A stretch of 64,000 bases of DNA from an uncultured Candidatus Actinomarina sp. Its GTDB lineage: Bacteria; Actinomycetota; Acidimicrobiia; Actinomarinales; Actinomarinaceae. Position numbers and translations under genes: made by a program. The notes under the pieces are model-generated. The model did no database searches. It was not told the DNA's origin and was given only the letters and a program-made list of their open reading frames with translations. The DNA lies in assembly GCA_902555985.1 (NCBI GenBank), contig CACDUI010000001.1:209943-273942 (forward strand), given 5' to 3'. Below, piece after piece: positions 17,841-24,783 of the stretch. Position 1 is the stretch's first letter. Every line of letters begins with the position of its first letter.

Positions 17841-18524
17841 TTAACTTACAAATACTCTTTTGGCTATATATTGATCTAGTCCAAAAAAGTTGTCTTTTGT
17901 AATACTTACAGTTAGTGAGTATTTATTGGTATTTGAAATAAAAATCTTATTTCCTGGCAAAATATTATTTTTTTTAAGAAAAGATATAACCTCACCATCT
18001 CTTTTTAGTTCTTCAGAAATTTTTATAATTGAATATTTTTTGTTTGTATCAACATCACATAACCTATCCATCGGACCTTCAAAATAGTTTGAATAGGGAA
18101 TAGGGTTTCCAAATATTCCAGTTTTTGGATTACCTAAGACTTTTAGCATGGCATCTTCAGTAACAGAACTTAAAACATTTTCCCATTTTTTAGTTTCTTC
18201 GTAGACCTGTTCCCAAGGTAAATTTAGAACTTCAGAAAGAAATCGTTCAATAATTCGATGCCTTCTTGCAATCATTTTTGCAAGGTATTCTCCTTTCTTT
18301 GTAAGCTTTAATTCATCACTGAACTCAATGAGACCACTATTTTGCATTCTTCCAATAACTTGTGACACATTAGCTCTACTGAAACCAAGCCATTCAGCAA
18401 CACGGGTTTGCTTTACCTCTATTCCAACTTCTGATAAATGGAATATCGCTTCAGCATGTGAATAAAATGAATTTGGTAACTTCTCGATTTCACTTTGTGC
18501 AAATATATTTGGATTATTATTCAT
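17841..18524 (-). CDS. DtxR/MntR-family transcriptional regulator with altered metal ligands
   Basis: A 227-residue regulator. It has a winged helix-turn-helix (about 30-75, VAEWLGFSRANVSQVIGRM), the dimerisation domain with RRHRIIERFL and FGNPIP, and a C-terminal SH3/FeoA-like domain (about 165-227). Aligned by eye to DtxR, His79 and Glu83 are kept (H89, E93) and Glu105 is kept (E115). Met10 becomes S22, Cys102 becomes K112 and His106 becomes N116. MntR's Asp8, Glu99 and His103 fall at the same three positions, so the primary site is lost by either model. H98 is Y108, which MntR also has. A palindrome covers its promoter (18534-18551), suggesting autoregulation, and the same palindrome precedes the iron transporter. 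Confidence 0.9.
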   Translation of the reverse strand: MNNNPNIFAQSEIEKLPNSFYSHAEAIFHLSEVGIEVKQTRVAEWLGFSRANVSQVIGRMQNSGLIEFSDELKLTKKGEYLAKMIARRHRIIERFLSEVLNLPWEQVYEETKKWENVLSSVTEDAMLKVLGNPKTGIFGNPIPYSNYFEGPMDRLCDVDTNKKYSIIKISEELKRDGEVISFLKKNNILPGNKIFISNTNKYSLTVSITKDNFFGLDQYIAKRVFVS

Positions 18525-18533
18525 TTGTATATA

Positions 18534-18551
18534 TGTTAACAGTAATTAACA
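18534..18551. promoter_or_regulatory. Candidate operator, perfect palindrome TGTTAA-N6-TTAACA, upstream of the DtxR-family gene
   Basis: Two six-base arms are perfect inverted repeats around CAGTAA. The site begins nine bases upstream of the regulator's start codon and overlaps its probable -10 region (TAACAT at 18533-18538 on the minus strand). Binding there would block transcription. The identical arms and spacing occur at 19894-19911. The arm TTAACA recalls DtxR-type half sites but is not the classical DtxR/IdeR sequence. Confidence 0.6.
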
Positions 18552-18567
18552 CATAATGGAGTGAAGT

Positions 18568-18663
18568 TTAAAAGGCGGGACAACCAACTGCAAACGTCAA
18601 TCCAAAGAAAAGAAACCATATTATTGGTTCATATTTCCGGACAAGCTTTGGATCTTTTTGCAT
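18568..18663 (-). CDS. Small 31-residue membrane peptide upstream of the DtxR-family gene
   Basis: The frame reads MQKDPKLVRKYEPIIWF, then a hydrophobic helix FLFFGLTFAVGC, then PAF. A basic N-terminus followed by one helix is a typical small membrane protein layout. On the minus strand a TAGAAT box lies seven bases before the ATG (18671-18676), matching the leaderless pattern used elsewhere here. It ends 16 bases before the operator of the regulator gene, so it could be read together with it. No family is recognised. Confidence 0.4.
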   Translation of the reverse strand: MQKDPKLVRKYEPIIWFLFFGLTFAVGCPAF

Positions 18664-18701
18664 TATTTATATTCTAGTATTTAATGTATAATAGTAATAA
18701 T

Positions 18702-18821
18702 ATGATGTGCCCTTATGCTTATTTATTAGCCGGATTTATGTGGTTTGTACGTAATGGGGGTAAGTTCGTAATCAAATCTTTTAATTTTAAAAAGCTTTCA
18801 AAATCAGGCAGTCTTAACTAA
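18702..18821 (+). CDS. Possible 39-residue small protein (weak)
   Basis: An ATG frame reads MMCPYAYLLAGFMWFVRNG and ends in a lysine-rich tail. TATAAT lies at 18687-18692, nine bases upstream. The last 18 bases overlap the 3' end of hemH on the other strand. Nothing else supports it, and the composition could be chance in AT-rich DNA. The rest of 18664-18803 holds no other gene that I can see. Confidence 0.2.
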   Translation: MMCPYAYLLAGFMWFVRNGGKFVIKSFNFKKLSKSGSLN

Positions 18822-19820
18822 ATTTTCTAAAAGTGTAACAGTTTCTTCTGAATCATTAAGACATGGTATGTAGGTCATATTCCTACCCCCCGCATCAAAA
18901 AATGTTTTCCTTCCTCGTATATCTATCTCTTCTAAAGTTTCAAGACAGTCTGAGATAAAAGACGGGCACAATATAGCAATATTTTCTTTACCCTCTTCTG
19001 GCAGTTCAGCGAGCCTTCTGTCTGTAAAAGGCGTAAGCCACCCAGGGCCTAGCCTGGACTGATAAGCAACTTCCCATTGATCTTCACTTAATCCCAATTT
19101 TTTTGCTGTTAAGTCTGAAGCTATTCTTGTATGAGACCTGTAGCAGTCCTTAGAACCTTCACTTTCTATTTCACAACAGTTACCAGTTGAAAAACAATGC
19201 TCACCTGTTTCGTCTGTTTTTTTTGCCTGTCTTTTTGGGATTCCATGATAACTAAATATAATTTTGTCAAAGGATGATTTTTCAATGTATGGTTTTATTG
19301 AATTACTTAGAGTATTTATATAAATTTCATTATCAAAAAAAGGTTTTGTAAAAATTAACTCAAAATTTTCTGAAATTTTGTTAGCAACGATCCTAGTTTC
19401 CATTTCAGTAGTGATTGTTGTTGCCATGGCATTGTGTGGATAAAGGGATATAACAATAATTTTATTTATACCTTTGCTATTGAAATTGACTAAAGCCTTT
19501 TCAATACTTGGGTCTTCGTATCTCATTGCATAATCGACATCCCAGCCAGTTTTTTTTGATAATTTTTTGGCAATACTTTTAGTTGATAAAATTAGTGGAG
19601 AACCTTCTGGGGTCCAAATTAGTTCATATGCTTCCAAAGTATTTTTAGGCCTGAAGGGGAGTATGAAAAGTCGAAGTATTAATTGCTGCAAAATTTTAGG
19701 TATATCTAAAACATAGTCATCAGATAAAAATACTCTAAGGTACTCTTTAACTGATTTTTTTGTTAACTCCTTGGGACTACCAAGATTTATTAAAAGAACC
19801 CCTGTTGTATTTTCAGACAT
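18804..19820 (-). CDS. hemH: Ferrochelatase with a cysteine-rich insertion
   Basis: Inserts Fe2+ into a porphyrin in haem synthesis; whether the substrate is protoporphyrin or coproporphyrin cannot be told here. It has 338 residues from the ATG at 19820; a TTG at 19838 is possible but less likely. The catalytic histidine is in FSYHGIP (H192) and the glutamate in DCLETLEEI (about 294). After the histidine loop comes an insertion with C209, C215, C216 and C226 (GNCC, KDCYRSH). Similar cysteine insertions occur in ferrochelatases of Bacteroidetes and Bdellovibrio, and some bacterial ferrochelatases carry a [2Fe-2S] cluster. TATTAT lies six bases before the start. It is divergent from the iron-binding-protein gene. 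Confidence 0.95.
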   Translation of the reverse strand: MSENTTGVLLINLGSPKELTKKSVKEYLRVFLSDDYVLDIPKILQQLILRLFILPFRPKNTLEAYELIWTPEGSPLILSTKSIAKKLSKKTGWDVDYAMRYEDPSIEKALVNFNSKGINKIIVISLYPHNAMATTITTEMETRIVANKISENFELIFTKPFFDNEIYINTLSNSIKPYIEKSSFDKIIFSYHGIPKRQAKKTDETGEHCFSTGNCCEIESEGSKDCYRSHTRIASDLTAKKLGLSEDQWEVAYQSRLGPGWLTPFTDRRLAELPEEGKENIAILCPSFISDCLETLEEIDIRGRKTFFDAGGRNMTYIPCLNDSEETVTLLENLVKTA

Positions 19821-19826
19821 AAATAA

Positions 19827-19832
19827 ATAATA
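19827..19832 (-). promoter_or_regulatory. Probable -10 box (TATTAT) for leaderless hemH
   Basis: On the minus strand it is exactly six bases (TTATTT) before the ATG at 19820. No Shine-Dalgarno is present, which argues for a transcript starting at the ATG. Confidence 0.55.
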
Positions 19833-19888
19833 CGACAAATCAAAAAAAAGGATAAATTAGAAAATACATAAATAAATTACCATTAACT

Positions 19889-19894
19889 TATAAT
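19889..19894 (+). promoter_or_regulatory. Probable -10 box (TATAAT) of the iron-transporter operon
   Basis: A perfect TATAAT sits 40 bases before the ATG at 19935, giving a leadered transcript with the AAGG ribosome site. Its last T is the first base of the palindrome at 19894, so a bound regulator would cover the start of transcription. No good -35 box is seen. Confidence 0.55.
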
Positions 19895-19911
19895 GTTAAG
19901 TACTATTAACA
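19894..19911. promoter_or_regulatory. Candidate operator, palindrome TGTTAA-N6-TTAACA, hemH/iron-importer intergenic region
   Basis: It has the same arms and spacing as the site in front of the DtxR-family gene, with a different centre (GTACTA). A wider inverted repeat, ATTAACTT (19882-19889) with AAGTTAAT (19912-19919), frames it. The site overlaps the transporter -10 box. It lies about 65 bases upstream of the hemH box, so effects on hemH are less certain. Confidence 0.6.
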
Positions 19912-19934
19912 AAGTTAATCAAAAAAAGGTTGAA

Positions 19935-21053
19935 ATGAATAAAAAAATAACAGTAATTTTAATTGCTTTTATGTTGGTTTTAACAGCTTGTTCACCTACA
20001 GCAGGAGAACAAGGACCAGCAGGAGAAGCAGGACCAGCAGGTGAAGCAGGACCAGCAGGTACAGTATCACAAGAAGCTATAGACGCAGCTGTTGAAGCTG
20101 CATTAGCCGCGAGAGAAGCTGAAGTCGGCGGAACTCTTGTCATTTATAGTGGTAGAAAAGAAAGTCTTGTAGCAGATATTATTTCAGAATTTGCCGCAAC
20201 TTCAGGAGTTGAAGTCGAAGTAAGGTATGCCAAGAGTGCTGCACTTGCAGGAACACTAGAACTAGAAGGTGCAATTAGCCCAGCTGATGTATTCTTCTCT
20301 CAAGATCCAGTTAGTCTTGGAGTCGTTGCAAAAGCCGGTCTTTTTGACAGACTTCCTGCTGACGTCTTAGACAATGTTCCATCTTGGGCAGTAGACAGTA
20401 ATGGCTACTGGGTAGGCACATCTGGAAGATCACGATCTCTTGTAGTAGATACACGAGATGTTATGGATTCTGAACTACCAAGTGACATATACGGTTTAGC
20501 TGATGAAAAATTCCGTAATAGGTTAGGACTTGCGCCAACAAACTCATCATTCATAGCAATGCTTGCTTGTATGATTGAGTCAGATGGTGAAGAAAAAGTC
20601 TTAGATTGGCTAACAACAATTAATGGTCTTGGATATGGTGAATATCCAAAAAACTCACCTCAAGTAGCAGCAGCTGCAGCAGGTGAGCTTGATATTGGAA
20701 TGATCAATCATTACTACACACTAAGAGTATTAGCAGAAGATGCTGATGCTCCTATTAAGAATGTTTATTTAGACGGTGGATGTGGTGCAATGGTTATGCC
20801 AGCAGGAGTTGGAATTTTGTCCTCAAGCCAAAATAAACCAGCAGCTATGGCTTTCATTGACTTCTTACATTCTAAGAGCGCTCAAGAAACATTTACAAAT
20901 ACAGTATACGAGTTCCCTCTTGTTGAAGGTATTCAGCCAAATGCATTACTACCAGAAATAAATAGTTTGAATTCACCTTCGAACTTAAACTGGTCAGCTT
21001 TAGCATTATGGCAAGAAAAAGCTGTAGAGTTGATTGCTCAAGCAGGATTTTAG
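19935..21053 (+). CDS. Ferric-iron ABC transporter substrate-binding lipoprotein (FutA/FbpA type) with a collagen-like linker
   Basis: I chose ATG at 19935, with AAGG just upstream, over the frame start at 19893, giving 372 residues. The signal peptide MNKKITVILIAFMLVLTAC ends at a lipobox cysteine. Seven Gly-X-Y triplets follow (GEQ GPA GEA GPA GEA GPA GTV), then an alanine-rich helix (EAIDAAVEAALAAREAE), then the binding domain starting at TLVIYSGRKESLV. The paired tyrosines of INHYYTLRV match the iron-binding tyrosines of FbpA/FutA proteins. It should capture Fe3+ outside the cell for the permease and ATPase downstream. It was chosen as the first gene, separated from the permease by a strong terminator, so it is probably made in excess. 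Confidence 0.92.
   Translation: MNKKITVILIAFMLVLTACSPTAGEQGPAGEAGPAGEAGPAGTVSQEAIDAAVEAALAAREAEVGGTLVIYSGRKESLVADIISEFAATSGVEVEVRYAKSAALAGTLELEGAISPADVFFSQDPVSLGVVAKAGLFDRLPADVLDNVPSWAVDSNGYWVGTSGRSRSLVVDTRDVMDSELPSDIYGLADEKFRNRLGLAPTNSSFIAMLACMIESDGEEKVLDWLTTINGLGYGEYPKNSPQVAAAAAGELDIGMINHYYTLRVLAEDADAPIKNVYLDGGCGAMVMPAGVGILSSSQNKPAAMAFIDFLHSKSAQETFTNTVYEFPLVEGIQPNALLPEINSLNSPSNLNWSALALWQEKAVELIAQAGF
20013..20066 (+). repeat. In-frame 18-bp tandem repeat coding for Gly-X-Y triplets
   Basis: Units of GGACCAGCAGGAGAAGCA, repeated about 2.7 times with one or two changes, code for GPAGEA. The period keeps frame, so copy number could change without breaking the lipoprotein. Confidence 0.85.
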
Positions 21054-21079
21054 TCCGTCCGTCAGTATCAACATAAGCC

Positions 21080-21118
21080 AAAAAATTCTGGTCAGAGAGA
21101 TCTGACCAGAATTTTTTT
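21080..21118 (+). terminator. Strong intrinsic terminator between the iron-binding protein and permease genes
   Basis: A perfect 17-bp stem (AAAAAATTCTGGTCAGA and its complement) closes a GAGA loop and ends in seven T residues. The A-rich left base makes it usable on both strands. It lies 27 bases after the binding-protein stop and 38 bases before the permease start, so some transcripts should end here while others read through. Confidence 0.92.
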
Positions 21119-21155
21119 CTTTTATTATTCAAATAATTTATTTAATCTTAATAAA

Positions 21156-22712
21156 GTGAATACACCGAAACCTCTTTTAATAGGCAACACTTTTATCTTA
21201 TTGATATTTTTGATGCCAATATTCTATATGTTTTGGAGATTTGCTAATTTTTCGAAAAATCTATCTAGCTTTCTTTCTTCATGGGATGTAGGTACTTTAT
21301 TATTCAATACACTTTTATTATTTTTTGCTGTTATTTTTACGAGTTTATTTCTTGGTTTGTTTATATCTATTCTTACTGTGAGATATGAATTTCCTGGTTC
21401 AAAATTATTATTTTCTCTTACAATTTTACCTTTAGTAATTCCCTCATATATTGGTGCTTTAACATATGTTTCTGCATTTTCCCCTAAAGGCTTGTTTGTT
21501 AGTTTATTTTCTAGATATGGGGTTAATGAAATTACAGGGATTGAAGGATTTATAGGCAGCTGGATAGTTTTGACTCTTTTCACTTATCCTTATGTTCAGT
21601 TGATTTGTAGCAGTGCACTTAGAAATTTAGATTCAACAGTTGAAGATGCTGCAAGATCTTTAGGGGTTAAAAAAATTAAAATGTATACAAAAGTAGTCAT
21701 ACCAAGGTTAAGAAAACCGATAATCTACTCTTCATTATTAGTTGGGCTTTATGTTATATCTGATTTTGGAGCAGTATCACTAATGAAATATGGAACAATG
21801 ACAAAAGCTATTTATTCTTATTACGTTATAAACATAAATGGTGATCCAGTAATTTTCTACTCAACAATTTTAATTTTATTAGCTTTAGTAATTAGCTTTG
21901 CTCAGCGGGGAACGGAATTAAGTAGATCTGCTAAAGTTTCTGGCACTCCGAGGGAAATAACAAAAATTAAACTTTCTAAAAAAAATAAAATTCTTGTTTT
22001 AACATTTTTTGGTATTGTCATTTTTTTTAGTTTACTTCTTCCGATGGGTGTCTTGTCTTATTGGTTGATAAGAGGACTGGCTAATGGAAATTCAGTAAGC
22101 GGTACATTTTCCGGAGTTGCGGGGTCTTTAACTGCTGCTACAGTCACTTCTATTTTTGCAATGATCATAGCTACCCCTATAGTTGTTATGATTTCACAAT
22201 ATAGGTCAAAATTTGGTGATATATTTGAAAAAGTTACTCTAACTTTATATGGCCTTCCACATATAGCAGTTGGTATATCCATGCTATTTATAACAATTAA
22301 AATTTTCCCAGCAATTTATCAAACTTTCACAACTCTTATAATCTCATACCTAATTGTATTTTTACCACAAGCTGTTGGAGGAGGACAGGCTTCAATGGAA
22401 CAAGTTAAGTTATCGTATATTGAAGCAAGTTCAGGTCTTGGTTTGTCAAAAATCGATACTTTTTTTAAAGTCACGTTCCCATTGATTTATAGAGGTTTAT
22501 TTGCTGGTGCTGCCCTTGTTTTCTTATCAACAATGAAAGAGTTGCCCCAAACTCTTTTACTCAGGCCAACTGGATTTAGCACTATGGCAGTAGATATATG
22601 GTCCTATGCTTCAGAAGCTTTATTTACTCAGGCAGCATTTTCTGCATTTATTTTGTTAGCAATTAGCGCACTTCCTACATATATACTTAGTACAAGGAAT
22701 CTAAACAACTAA
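21156..22712 (+). CDS. Ferric-iron ABC transporter permease, two fused permease domains (FbpB type)
   Basis: A 518-residue permease starting at GTG 21156, with about twelve membrane helices. Each half has an ABC permease EAA-type loop: EDAARSLGVKKIKMYTKVV in the first and EASSGLGLSKIDTFFKVTF in the second. This fused architecture is standard for FbpB and FutB proteins. It takes iron from the binding protein and engages the ATPase encoded next, whose start codon overlaps its stop. A terminator lies between it and the binding-protein gene, so its level is probably lower. Confidence 0.93.
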   Translation: MNTPKPLLIGNTFILLIFLMPIFYMFWRFANFSKNLSSFLSSWDVGTLLFNTLLLFFAVIFTSLFLGLFISILTVRYEFPGSKLLFSLTILPLVIPSYIGALTYVSAFSPKGLFVSLFSRYGVNEITGIEGFIGSWIVLTLFTYPYVQLICSSALRNLDSTVEDAARSLGVKKIKMYTKVVIPRLRKPIIYSSLLVGLYVISDFGAVSLMKYGTMTKAIYSYYVININGDPVIFYSTILILLALVISFAQRGTELSRSAKVSGTPREITKIKLSKKNKILVLTFFGIVIFFSLLLPMGVLSYWLIRGLANGNSVSGTFSGVAGSLTAATVTSIFAMIIATPIVVMISQYRSKFGDIFEKVTLTLYGLPHIAVGISMLFITIKIFPAIYQTFTTLIISYLIVFLPQAVGGGQASMEQVKLSYIEASSGLGLSKIDTFFKVTFPLIYRGLFAGAALVFLSTMKELPQTLLLRPTGFSTMAVDIWSYASEALFTQAAFSAFILLAISALPTYILSTRNLNN

Positions 22713-23734
22713 TGGCATTTGAAAACTTAATCATAAGAGCAAGATCAGTAACTAAGTCTTACGGTTCTGAATTAGTATTGTCAGATTTTAATTTAGATGT
22801 TTGGAATGGTTCTATTGTTGGAGTTTTAGGAACTTCAGGATCAGGTAAAACAACTGCATTGAGATTGCTTGCAGGATTTGACAAACCTGATTCCGGAATT
22901 ATTGAGATGCGAAACAATATTATTGCAAGTGATGACACTTTCTTACCTCCCGAGGAAAGAAACGTTGGAATGGTTTTTCAAGACTACGCTTTATTTCCAC
23001 ATTTGAATGTTGAAAAAAATATATCATTCGGACTTTCACAAGATGAAATTAAAAATGGAAGATTAGAAGAAGTTCTTTCTATGTGTAATTTAAATACTTA
23101 CAGGAATAAATTTCCACAGGAATTATCTGGAGGACAACAACAAAGAGTTTCCCTTGCTAGAGCCTTAGCTCCTAAACCCGAAGTAATTCTTTTAGATGAG
23201 CCTTTTACAAGCTTAGATGCACAGATGGCTAGAGATCTTAGAGAGGAAGTAGTTTCACTATTAAGACAAACTGAAACTACTGCAATAATTGTTACTCACG
23301 ATCAAGAAGAAGCCTTATCGGTTTGTGATGTAGTGAGTGTTCTAGAAAATGGAAGTGTAATACAAAGTGCTACTCCTCAGGAAATTTATCTAAACCCAGT
23401 TAGTCAAAATGTTGCAAATTCTGTTGGAGACCCAAATATACTTAAAGGCTTCTCAGTAGATGGCAGAGTAGAGACATCTTTGGGTACTTTTGTTTCTGCT
23501 TACAATGGAGCACTGGATGTTTCTATCCGACCAGAATGCATTGAACTTTCTATAGACTCTGAAGGTAGTTATGTTGTTCAAGAGTGTACTTTTTATGGCC
23601 ATGACCAAGTTATCTCATTTCAAAATAGTAAAGGTGAAGTTTTCAGAGCTAGATCACTTCCAAATACTATTTACGAAGCGGGCGATAAAGTAAATATTAA
23701 AATATCAGAAGTTACAACTTTTCCTTCAAATTGA
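22712..23734 (+). CDS. Ferric-iron ABC transporter ATPase (FbpC type)
   Basis: A 340-residue importer ATPase. The Walker A is GTSGSGKTT (about residues 37-45), the signature is LSGGQQQRVSLARAL, the Walker B is VILLDEPFTSLDAQMARDLR and the H-loop is in IVTHDQEEAL. A C-terminal TOBE-like regulatory domain follows residue 240, including VSIRPECIEL and a segment RARSLPNTIYEAGDKV. It overlaps the permease by one base and converges on the small gene at 23726, overlapping by nine bases. Confidence 0.93.
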   Translation: MAFENLIIRARSVTKSYGSELVLSDFNLDVWNGSIVGVLGTSGSGKTTALRLLAGFDKPDSGIIEMRNNIIASDDTFLPPEERNVGMVFQDYALFPHLNVEKNISFGLSQDEIKNGRLEEVLSMCNLNTYRNKFPQELSGGQQQRVSLARALAPKPEVILLDEPFTSLDAQMARDLREEVVSLLRQTETTAIIVTHDQEEALSVCDVVSVLENGSVIQSATPQEIYLNPVSQNVANSVGDPNILKGFSVDGRVETSLGTFVSAYNGALDVSIRPECIELSIDSEGSYVVQECTFYGHDQVISFQNSKGEVFRARSLPNTIYEAGDKVNIKISEVTTFPSN

Positions 23735-23932: not shown

Positions 23933-23979
23933 ATTTGAAAACTAGAATTAGCTTAATATTTTATTTGGGGGAGATCATA

Positions 23980-24783
23980 TTGGAAACTAAAATTCAAAAA
24001 CTTAAACGTTTCAACATAATAATGGGAACAGTTCATTTAATTCAAGGTGGATTATTGTTTTGGTTAGGTACTGTTGTTAATTCAGACTTTGTAGTACCAC
24101 TTACCTTAACTCAGCTTGTTGGAGTAGGCTCTCCTGAGGATCCCTCAAGCTTTGCATTAATTCCTGAGCTTGAAATTTGGACTGAGGTTACAAACTTTGG
24201 CCCAGCTGTTGCAACATTTTTGCTAGCATCTGCAGTTGCTCATTATTTGATTTCGGGACCGTTTTATAGCAAATACAAAGAAGATCTATCAAAGGGGATA
24301 AATAAAGTTAGATGGATTGAATACTCTATAAGCGCATCAGTAATGATTGTATTAATTGCTCTCCTTGTAGGTATTTATGATGTTTGGGCCTTAGCTGGAA
24401 TATTTTTTATGAATGCAGCAATGTGTTGGTTTGGCTGGATGATGGAAGTTCACAATCAATACACAGATAAAGTAGATTGGACGAGCTATATCATGGGTTG
24501 CTTAGTTGGCGTAGCGCCTTGGATATTTATTTTTGTAAATTTAATTGGTGATGGAGTTGCAACAGACGCAAATCCACAAGGAGTTCCACAATTTGTAGTT
24601 TGGATATTTGTAAGTATATTTTTATTCTTTAATACTTTTTCAATAAATATGATTTTGCAATACAAACAGGTTGGCAAGTGGAAAGATTATTTATACGGTG
24701 AAAGGGCTTATATATGGCTTAGCCTTTTAGCTAAAACTTGTCTTGCATGGCAAGTGTTCTTTGGGACATATCAACCAAATTAA
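23980..24783 (+). CDS. Heliorhodopsin
   Basis: A seven-helix retinal protein of the heliorhodopsin family, which sits with its N-terminus inside the cell, opposite to other microbial rhodopsins. TTG at 23980 is preferred because GGGGGAG at 23967-23973 sits six bases upstream; the longer frame adds a non-family leader. The 267-residue protein shows the family segments KLKRFNIIMGTVHLIQGG, RWIEYSISASVMIV (helix C, with the counterion glutamate), LQYKQVGKWKDYLYGERAY and SLLAKTCLAWQVF, whose lysine should bind retinal. Light drives a slow photocycle without known ion pumping, and the physiological role is open. No retinal-synthesis gene is in this window. It is divergent from a 64-residue coiled-coil gene. 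Confidence 0.95.
   Translation: METKIQKLKRFNIIMGTVHLIQGGLLFWLGTVVNSDFVVPLTLTQLVGVGSPEDPSSFALIPELEIWTEVTNFGPAVATFLLASAVAHYLISGPFYSKYKEDLSKGINKVRWIEYSISASVMIVLIALLVGIYDVWALAGIFFMNAAMCWFGWMMEVHNQYTDKVDWTSYIMGCLVGVAPWIFIFVNLIGDGVATDANPQGVPQFVVWIFVSIFLFFNTFSINMILQYKQVGKWKDYLYGERAYIWLSLLAKTCLAWQVFFGTYQPN

Follow-up and report, generated by a model that had tools for sequence, protein, structure and literature searches.

Gene content of the iron locus

The window (the whole 64,000-nucleotide stretch of DNA that was analyzed) contained a cluster of putative iron uptake genes. The gene at positions 17841 to 18524 (minus strand) was predicted to encode a DtxR/IdeR-like regulator of 227 amino acids, based on Pfam, PDB, and AlphaFold comparisons. 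A putative ferrochelatase gene, hemH (18804 to about 19820, minus strand; Pfam Ferrochelatase, 5.9e-86), was divergent from fbpA (19935 to 21053, plus strand), which was annotated as encoding a ferric-iron substrate-binding lipoprotein and had an iron-utilization periplasmic protein as its best PDB match (E = 3.5e-63). Genes annotated as encoding an ABC permease (fbpB, 21156 to 22712, plus strand; Pfam BPD_transp_1), which also followed fbpA in the relatives examined, and an ABC ATPase (fbpC, 22712 to 23734, plus strand; Pfam ABC_tran) completed an operon (19935 to 23734, plus strand) with the ferric-binding protein, permease, and ATPase of an FbpABC-type importer. Downstream of the FbpA lipoprotein signal, positions 19990 to 20070 (plus strand) encoded a collagen-like linker (GEQGPAGEAGPAGEAGPAG) of variable length and sequence among relatives.

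A cluster of an Fe3+ ABC transporter, ferrochelatase, and iron-dependent repressor, lying between nuo operons and beside heliorhodopsin, has been described for "Candidatus Actinomarinales" (PMC7771536); the passages of that report considered here make no mention of an operator, autoregulation, or loss of metal sites. A probable heliorhodopsin gene adjoined the iron cluster in the window as well (23971 to 24783, plus strand), in keeping with the neighborhood set out in those passages. Between the regulator gene and hemH were two small ORFs, one of approximately 39 amino acids (MMCPYAYLLAGFMWFVRNGG...; 18702 to 18821, plus strand) and one of 31 amino acids (MQKDPKLVRKYEPIIWFLFFGLTFAVGCPAF; 18568 to 18663, minus strand). 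Relatives carried both sequences in the corresponding position, and the divergent genome G001 retained the former.

Occurrence of the palindrome

An exact TGTTAA-N6-TTAACA palindrome was found at 18534 to 18551 (TGTTAACAGTAATTAACA), before the regulator gene, and at 19894 to 19911 (TGTTAAGTACTATTAACA), before fbpA (candidate operators 1 and 2). The preliminary description of this DNA had reported the same two identical copies and no third one in the window, and both statements held, with zero further matches in the 64 kb even when one mismatch was allowed. Exact copies in the whole assembly (1.03 Mb) were the same two only, compared to base-composition expectations of 0.026 copies in 64 kb and 0.43 copies in 1.034 Mb. 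The proposed check of genome-wide enrichment near iron genes thus revealed no wider regulon, the exact sites in this genome being these two alone. Four more palindromes with one mismatch were present, three in coding sequence and the fourth approximately 140 bp upstream of an unrelated ABC substrate-binding gene, and a broader regulon in this genome was rejected on these grounds. When up to two mismatches were allowed, the palindrome was not enriched (122 matches versus 231 for a reversed control pattern); the signal is therefore confined to the exact or near-exact form, and the case is one of conservation rather than of counts in a single genome. Genus-wide, 67 exact palindromes were found, versus 14 for the reversed control, and 59 of the 67 belonged to the regulator/fbpA locus.

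Conservation across the genus

Sites were compared across 42 genomes of the genus "Candidatus Actinomarina," most of them incomplete and related rather than independent; comparable loci appear under the names uncultured Candidatus Actinomarina and OCS155 cluster. The regulator gene was found in 33 of these genomes, fbpA in 36, and hemH in 22, with hemH missing even from some that were >90% complete. The palindrome preceded every one of the 33 regulator orthologues, exactly in 27 and with one mismatch in 6, and was exact in all 29 aligned regions upstream of fbpA; G005, G014, and G061 also had exact sites before fbpA, as judged by coordinates. The 12 core positions carried 1.93 of 2 bits of information at the regulator gene, versus 0.41 in the 50 bp upstream (33 genomes), and 2.0 bits at fbpA, versus 0.96 in the 50 bp upstream (29 genomes), and the DNA flanking both palindromes varied among relatives. 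Conservation in relatives with the same regulator, another check proposed at the outset, was thus observed at both genes.

A candidate third site was found in three genomes (G060, G019, and G013; loci L107, L108, and L109) between putA, a proline-catabolism fusion gene, and a cluster encoding ABM-like and small membrane proteins, where the palindrome was exact and lay 17 to 24 nt before the first gene of the cluster. This site was not found in G012, G001, or G005, and the G008 contig ended there; it is a possible lineage-specific target. Exact matches elsewhere in G032, G033, G059, and G002 had dissimilar inner bases and were treated as chance. Two of these (L110:3688 in G033 and L112:3636 in G032), which precede a gutM-like gene by about 105 bp and also have different inner bases, probably reflect chance together with shared descent between two related genomes.

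Putative promoters overlapped by the palindromes

At the regulator gene, the proximal arm of the palindrome contained a putative −10 element, TAACAT (18533 to 18538, minus strand), 8 nt before the ATG in the window and within an extended −10 context, TGTTAACAT. This string was invariant upstream of the regulator gene in all 33 orthologues, with the start codon 5 to 12 nt (mostly 7 to 9 nt) after it, and Shine-Dalgarno-like strings preceded only 2 of the 33 genes. Together, these features point to an extended −10 promoter whose transcript would be leaderless. At fbpA, the right arm of the palindrome included the putative −10 element TAACAA (19907 to 19912, plus strand), of which TAACA was invariant in 29 genomes and located 18 nt from TTAACT (19883 to 19888, plus strand), a probable −35 element or extra half-site. 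TTAACT was conserved in the same 29 genomes (TTAA invariant and C in 97%) and was kept where hemH was missing. The preliminary description had placed each palindrome over a probable −10 region, and both do cover inferred −10 strings, but TATAAT at 19889 to 19894, touching the left arm, was rejected as the fbpA −10 element. Since TTAACT and TAACA are both conserved and TATAAT is not, the former pair is the likelier fbpA promoter.

Assignment of the second site to fbpA

Eleven genomes with the regulator gene and fbpA, some of them >90% complete, had no detectable hemH and kept the site. In two others (G021 and G024), hemH was flipped, so that the main site followed hemH and preceded fbpA, and a separate site with one mismatch was found 3 and 5 nt before hemH. 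On both grounds, the second site is assigned to fbpA rather than to hemH. A role for candidate operator 2 as the hemH promoter was rejected, as the hemH start is 73 to 106 nt distant and genomes lacking the gene retain the site. The earlier proposal that ferrochelatase might belong to the regulon found partial support: in the window's arrangement the site tracks fbpA, but the near-match in the two flipped-hemH genomes speaks for a link to hemH. There, at least in the G021/G024 sublineage, hemH has been brought under a separate site; its control in the window's arrangement is uncertain.

Family, fold, and metal sites of the regulator

The regulator matched the Pfam metal-binding and dimerization domain Fe_dep_repr_C (8.9e-21; 74.1 bits versus a cutoff of 27), with Fe_dep_repress (25.9 versus 26) and FeoA (20 versus 23) falling under their cutoffs. 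IdeR chains in the PDB matched it at E values of about 1e-29, and full-length IdeR structures (7b1y, 7b1v, and 1fx7) were the best fold matches to its AlphaFold model (pLDDT, 87.8), in which a winged-helix N-terminal domain and an SH3/FeoA C-terminal domain were predicted. Its score against the DtxR equivalog model NF053665 (NCBIfam) was 120.6 bits, below the curated cutoff of 290, and the protein is not classed as a DtxR/IdeR orthologue in the strict sense. In the tree, the Actinomarina regulators clustered together (100% support), and the branch carrying them was long, at 2.36 changes per site.

In IdeR, Fe2+ is held by primary ligands Met10, Cys102, Glu105, and His106 and by ancillary ligands His79, Glu83, His98, Glu172, and Gln175 (PMC10317159 and general knowledge). 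By alignment of orthologues only, Glu105 was the sole primary ligand kept in the aligned Actinomarina proteins, the others being replaced (M10S/T/K, C102K/S/T/A, and H106N/D). At the ancillary site, Glu83 and Glu172 were retained, as was His79 in most (Arg in some), whereas His98 was Tyr and Gln175 was Lys throughout. Because most canonical ligands are replaced, canonical sensing of ferrous iron by this regulator appears doubtful, and metal-dependent repression is not assured.

Comparison with known operators and outgroup homologues

The regulator shares with actinobacterial IdeR/DtxR its protein family, domain order, fold, and iron uptake target, as well as recognition helix residues Ser37 and Gln43 and a box with symmetric TTA/TAA elements. 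The sites themselves differ. The IdeR consensus operator, TTAGGTTAGSCTAACCTAA, is a 19-bp site for two dimers, whereas TGTTAA-N6-TTAACA, which does not match that consensus, is a single site of 16 to 18 bp. CCTAA is the element recognized by each subunit of IdeR, which no longer binds once both cytosines are replaced by T (PMC8464063); both cytosines of each element are gone from the Actinomarina site. The IdeR helix residues Gly38-Pro39-Thr40 correspond to Arg-Ala-Asn, in addition to the replaced metal ligands. Manganese-dependent MntR belongs to the same family, but its acidic ligand set is absent from the Actinomarina regulator, and the importer targeted here is ferric rather than for manganese.

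Outgroup homologues of the same class were 38 to 43% identical to the Actinomarina regulator. Like it, they adjoined iron uptake genes, encoding FbpA-like (L246 and L252) or FTR1-like (L239 and L245) proteins, and several had one palindrome between divergent genes. GTTAGG-N4-CCTAAC was found with at most one mismatch at 6 of 22 outgroup loci (4 exact and 2 with one mismatch); shuffles yielded no exact box and 0.03 at the same tolerance. The Actinomarina core, GTTAA-N6-TTAAC, spans the same 16 bp with the same symmetry and has lost the inner G/C pairs. The outgroup box contains GG/CC; the two Actinomarina boxes are AT-rich, and each lies at a promoter of its own. In the recognition helix, Asn40 and Gln43 occurred in all aligned Actinomarina orthologues, versus mostly Ser40 and Glu43 in the outgroups, a pattern that joint change of site and protein would produce. 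Unlike the Actinomarina regulator, the outgroup homologues keep Glu10, His98, usually Glu102, and Glu175; their remaining metal residues were His79, Glu83, Glu105, Thr/His/Ser/Leu106, and Glu172. All aligned outgroup homologues (L238 to L254) also had Cys126 and His128 (in TCPHGNPIPG), which are absent from IdeR and Actinomarina and possibly form an extra metal site. In all likelihood, the Actinomarina site is a DtxR-type operator in derived form.

Candidate binding proteins and alternative readings

The window's genome contained one DtxR-family gene and two Fur-family genes. Fur proteins commonly control iron uptake, and the palindrome might be bound by a different regulator, for instance either Fur-family protein, with the DtxR-like gene being one of its targets. 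Several observations make this improbable. The Fur-family genes adjoin a cobalt/nickel-type ECF transporter and a znuA-like gene, and for this reason neither is an obvious iron Fur; the length and symmetry of the site match those of the box beside outgroup DtxR homologues. Furthermore, G001 carries both Fur paralogues and lacks the regulator and the site, its ferric importer operon lying beside a DUF454 gene with no regulator between them. G001 is divergent (its fbpA is 47% identical), and the absence may therefore be an old rather than a recent loss; in either case, regulator and site go together in their presence.

It is more improbable still that the strings are promoter elements alone (TTAACA/TAACAT −10 elements with their partners) with incidental symmetry. 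The arms do coincide with −10-like strings, at fixed distances from the start codon at the regulator gene, but TGTTAA, the distal arm, is conserved at both genes to the same degree as the proximal arm despite lying upstream of the −10 element, and exact copies are nearly all at the regulator/fbpA locus. Chance repetition of an AT-rich motif can be set aside almost entirely, since, although the 0.43 exact copies expected genome-wide make a single copy unremarkable and the relaxed motif lacked enrichment, it is already refuted by the retention of the motif at both positions, amid variable flanks, in about 30 species.

Proposed regulation and its implications

The palindrome is best read as the operator of the adjacent DtxR-like regulator, which would control its own gene and fbpA; we assign this reading a probability of roughly 0.87. 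The small local regulon of regulator and ferric importer suggested in the preliminary description finds strong support in conservation across the 42 genomes, the joint absence in G001, and the related outgroup operator. We infer that a regulator dimer would occupy TGTTAA-N6-TTAACA and thereby cover the −10 regions of both the regulator gene and fbpA. As the palindrome covers the putative −10 element at both genes, the bound dimer should block RNA polymerase, so that the regulator is predicted to repress both its own gene (negative autoregulation) and the ferric importer. The operator most likely arose by conversion of GTTAGG-N4-CCTAAC to GTTAA-N6-TTAAC within an AT-rich, streamlined genome.

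Tentatively, and at somewhat less than even odds, the regulator may be a DtxR-family protein that gave up ferrous-iron sensing while keeping its operator, autoregulation, and importer target. Such a protein would respond to another signal, candidates being ferric iron through Tyr98, heme, or iron-sulfur species, or would adopt an active conformation without metal, stabilized perhaps by a Lys175-Glu salt bridge. A full-text literature search found no known metal-independent DtxR relatives, which is weak evidence.

Iron is often the limiting factor for growth in the sea, where Actinomarina is an abundant lineage with a streamlined genome and few regulators. Its only DtxR-family regulator, the sole candidate iron regulator, now has a concrete and testable operator. 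The comparison with outgroups offers a stepwise view of a DtxR-type box and a recognition helix drifting together in an AT-rich genome. The strangest part of the finding is the loss of metal ligands, which raises the question of how an iron regulator works once its known metal sites are gone.
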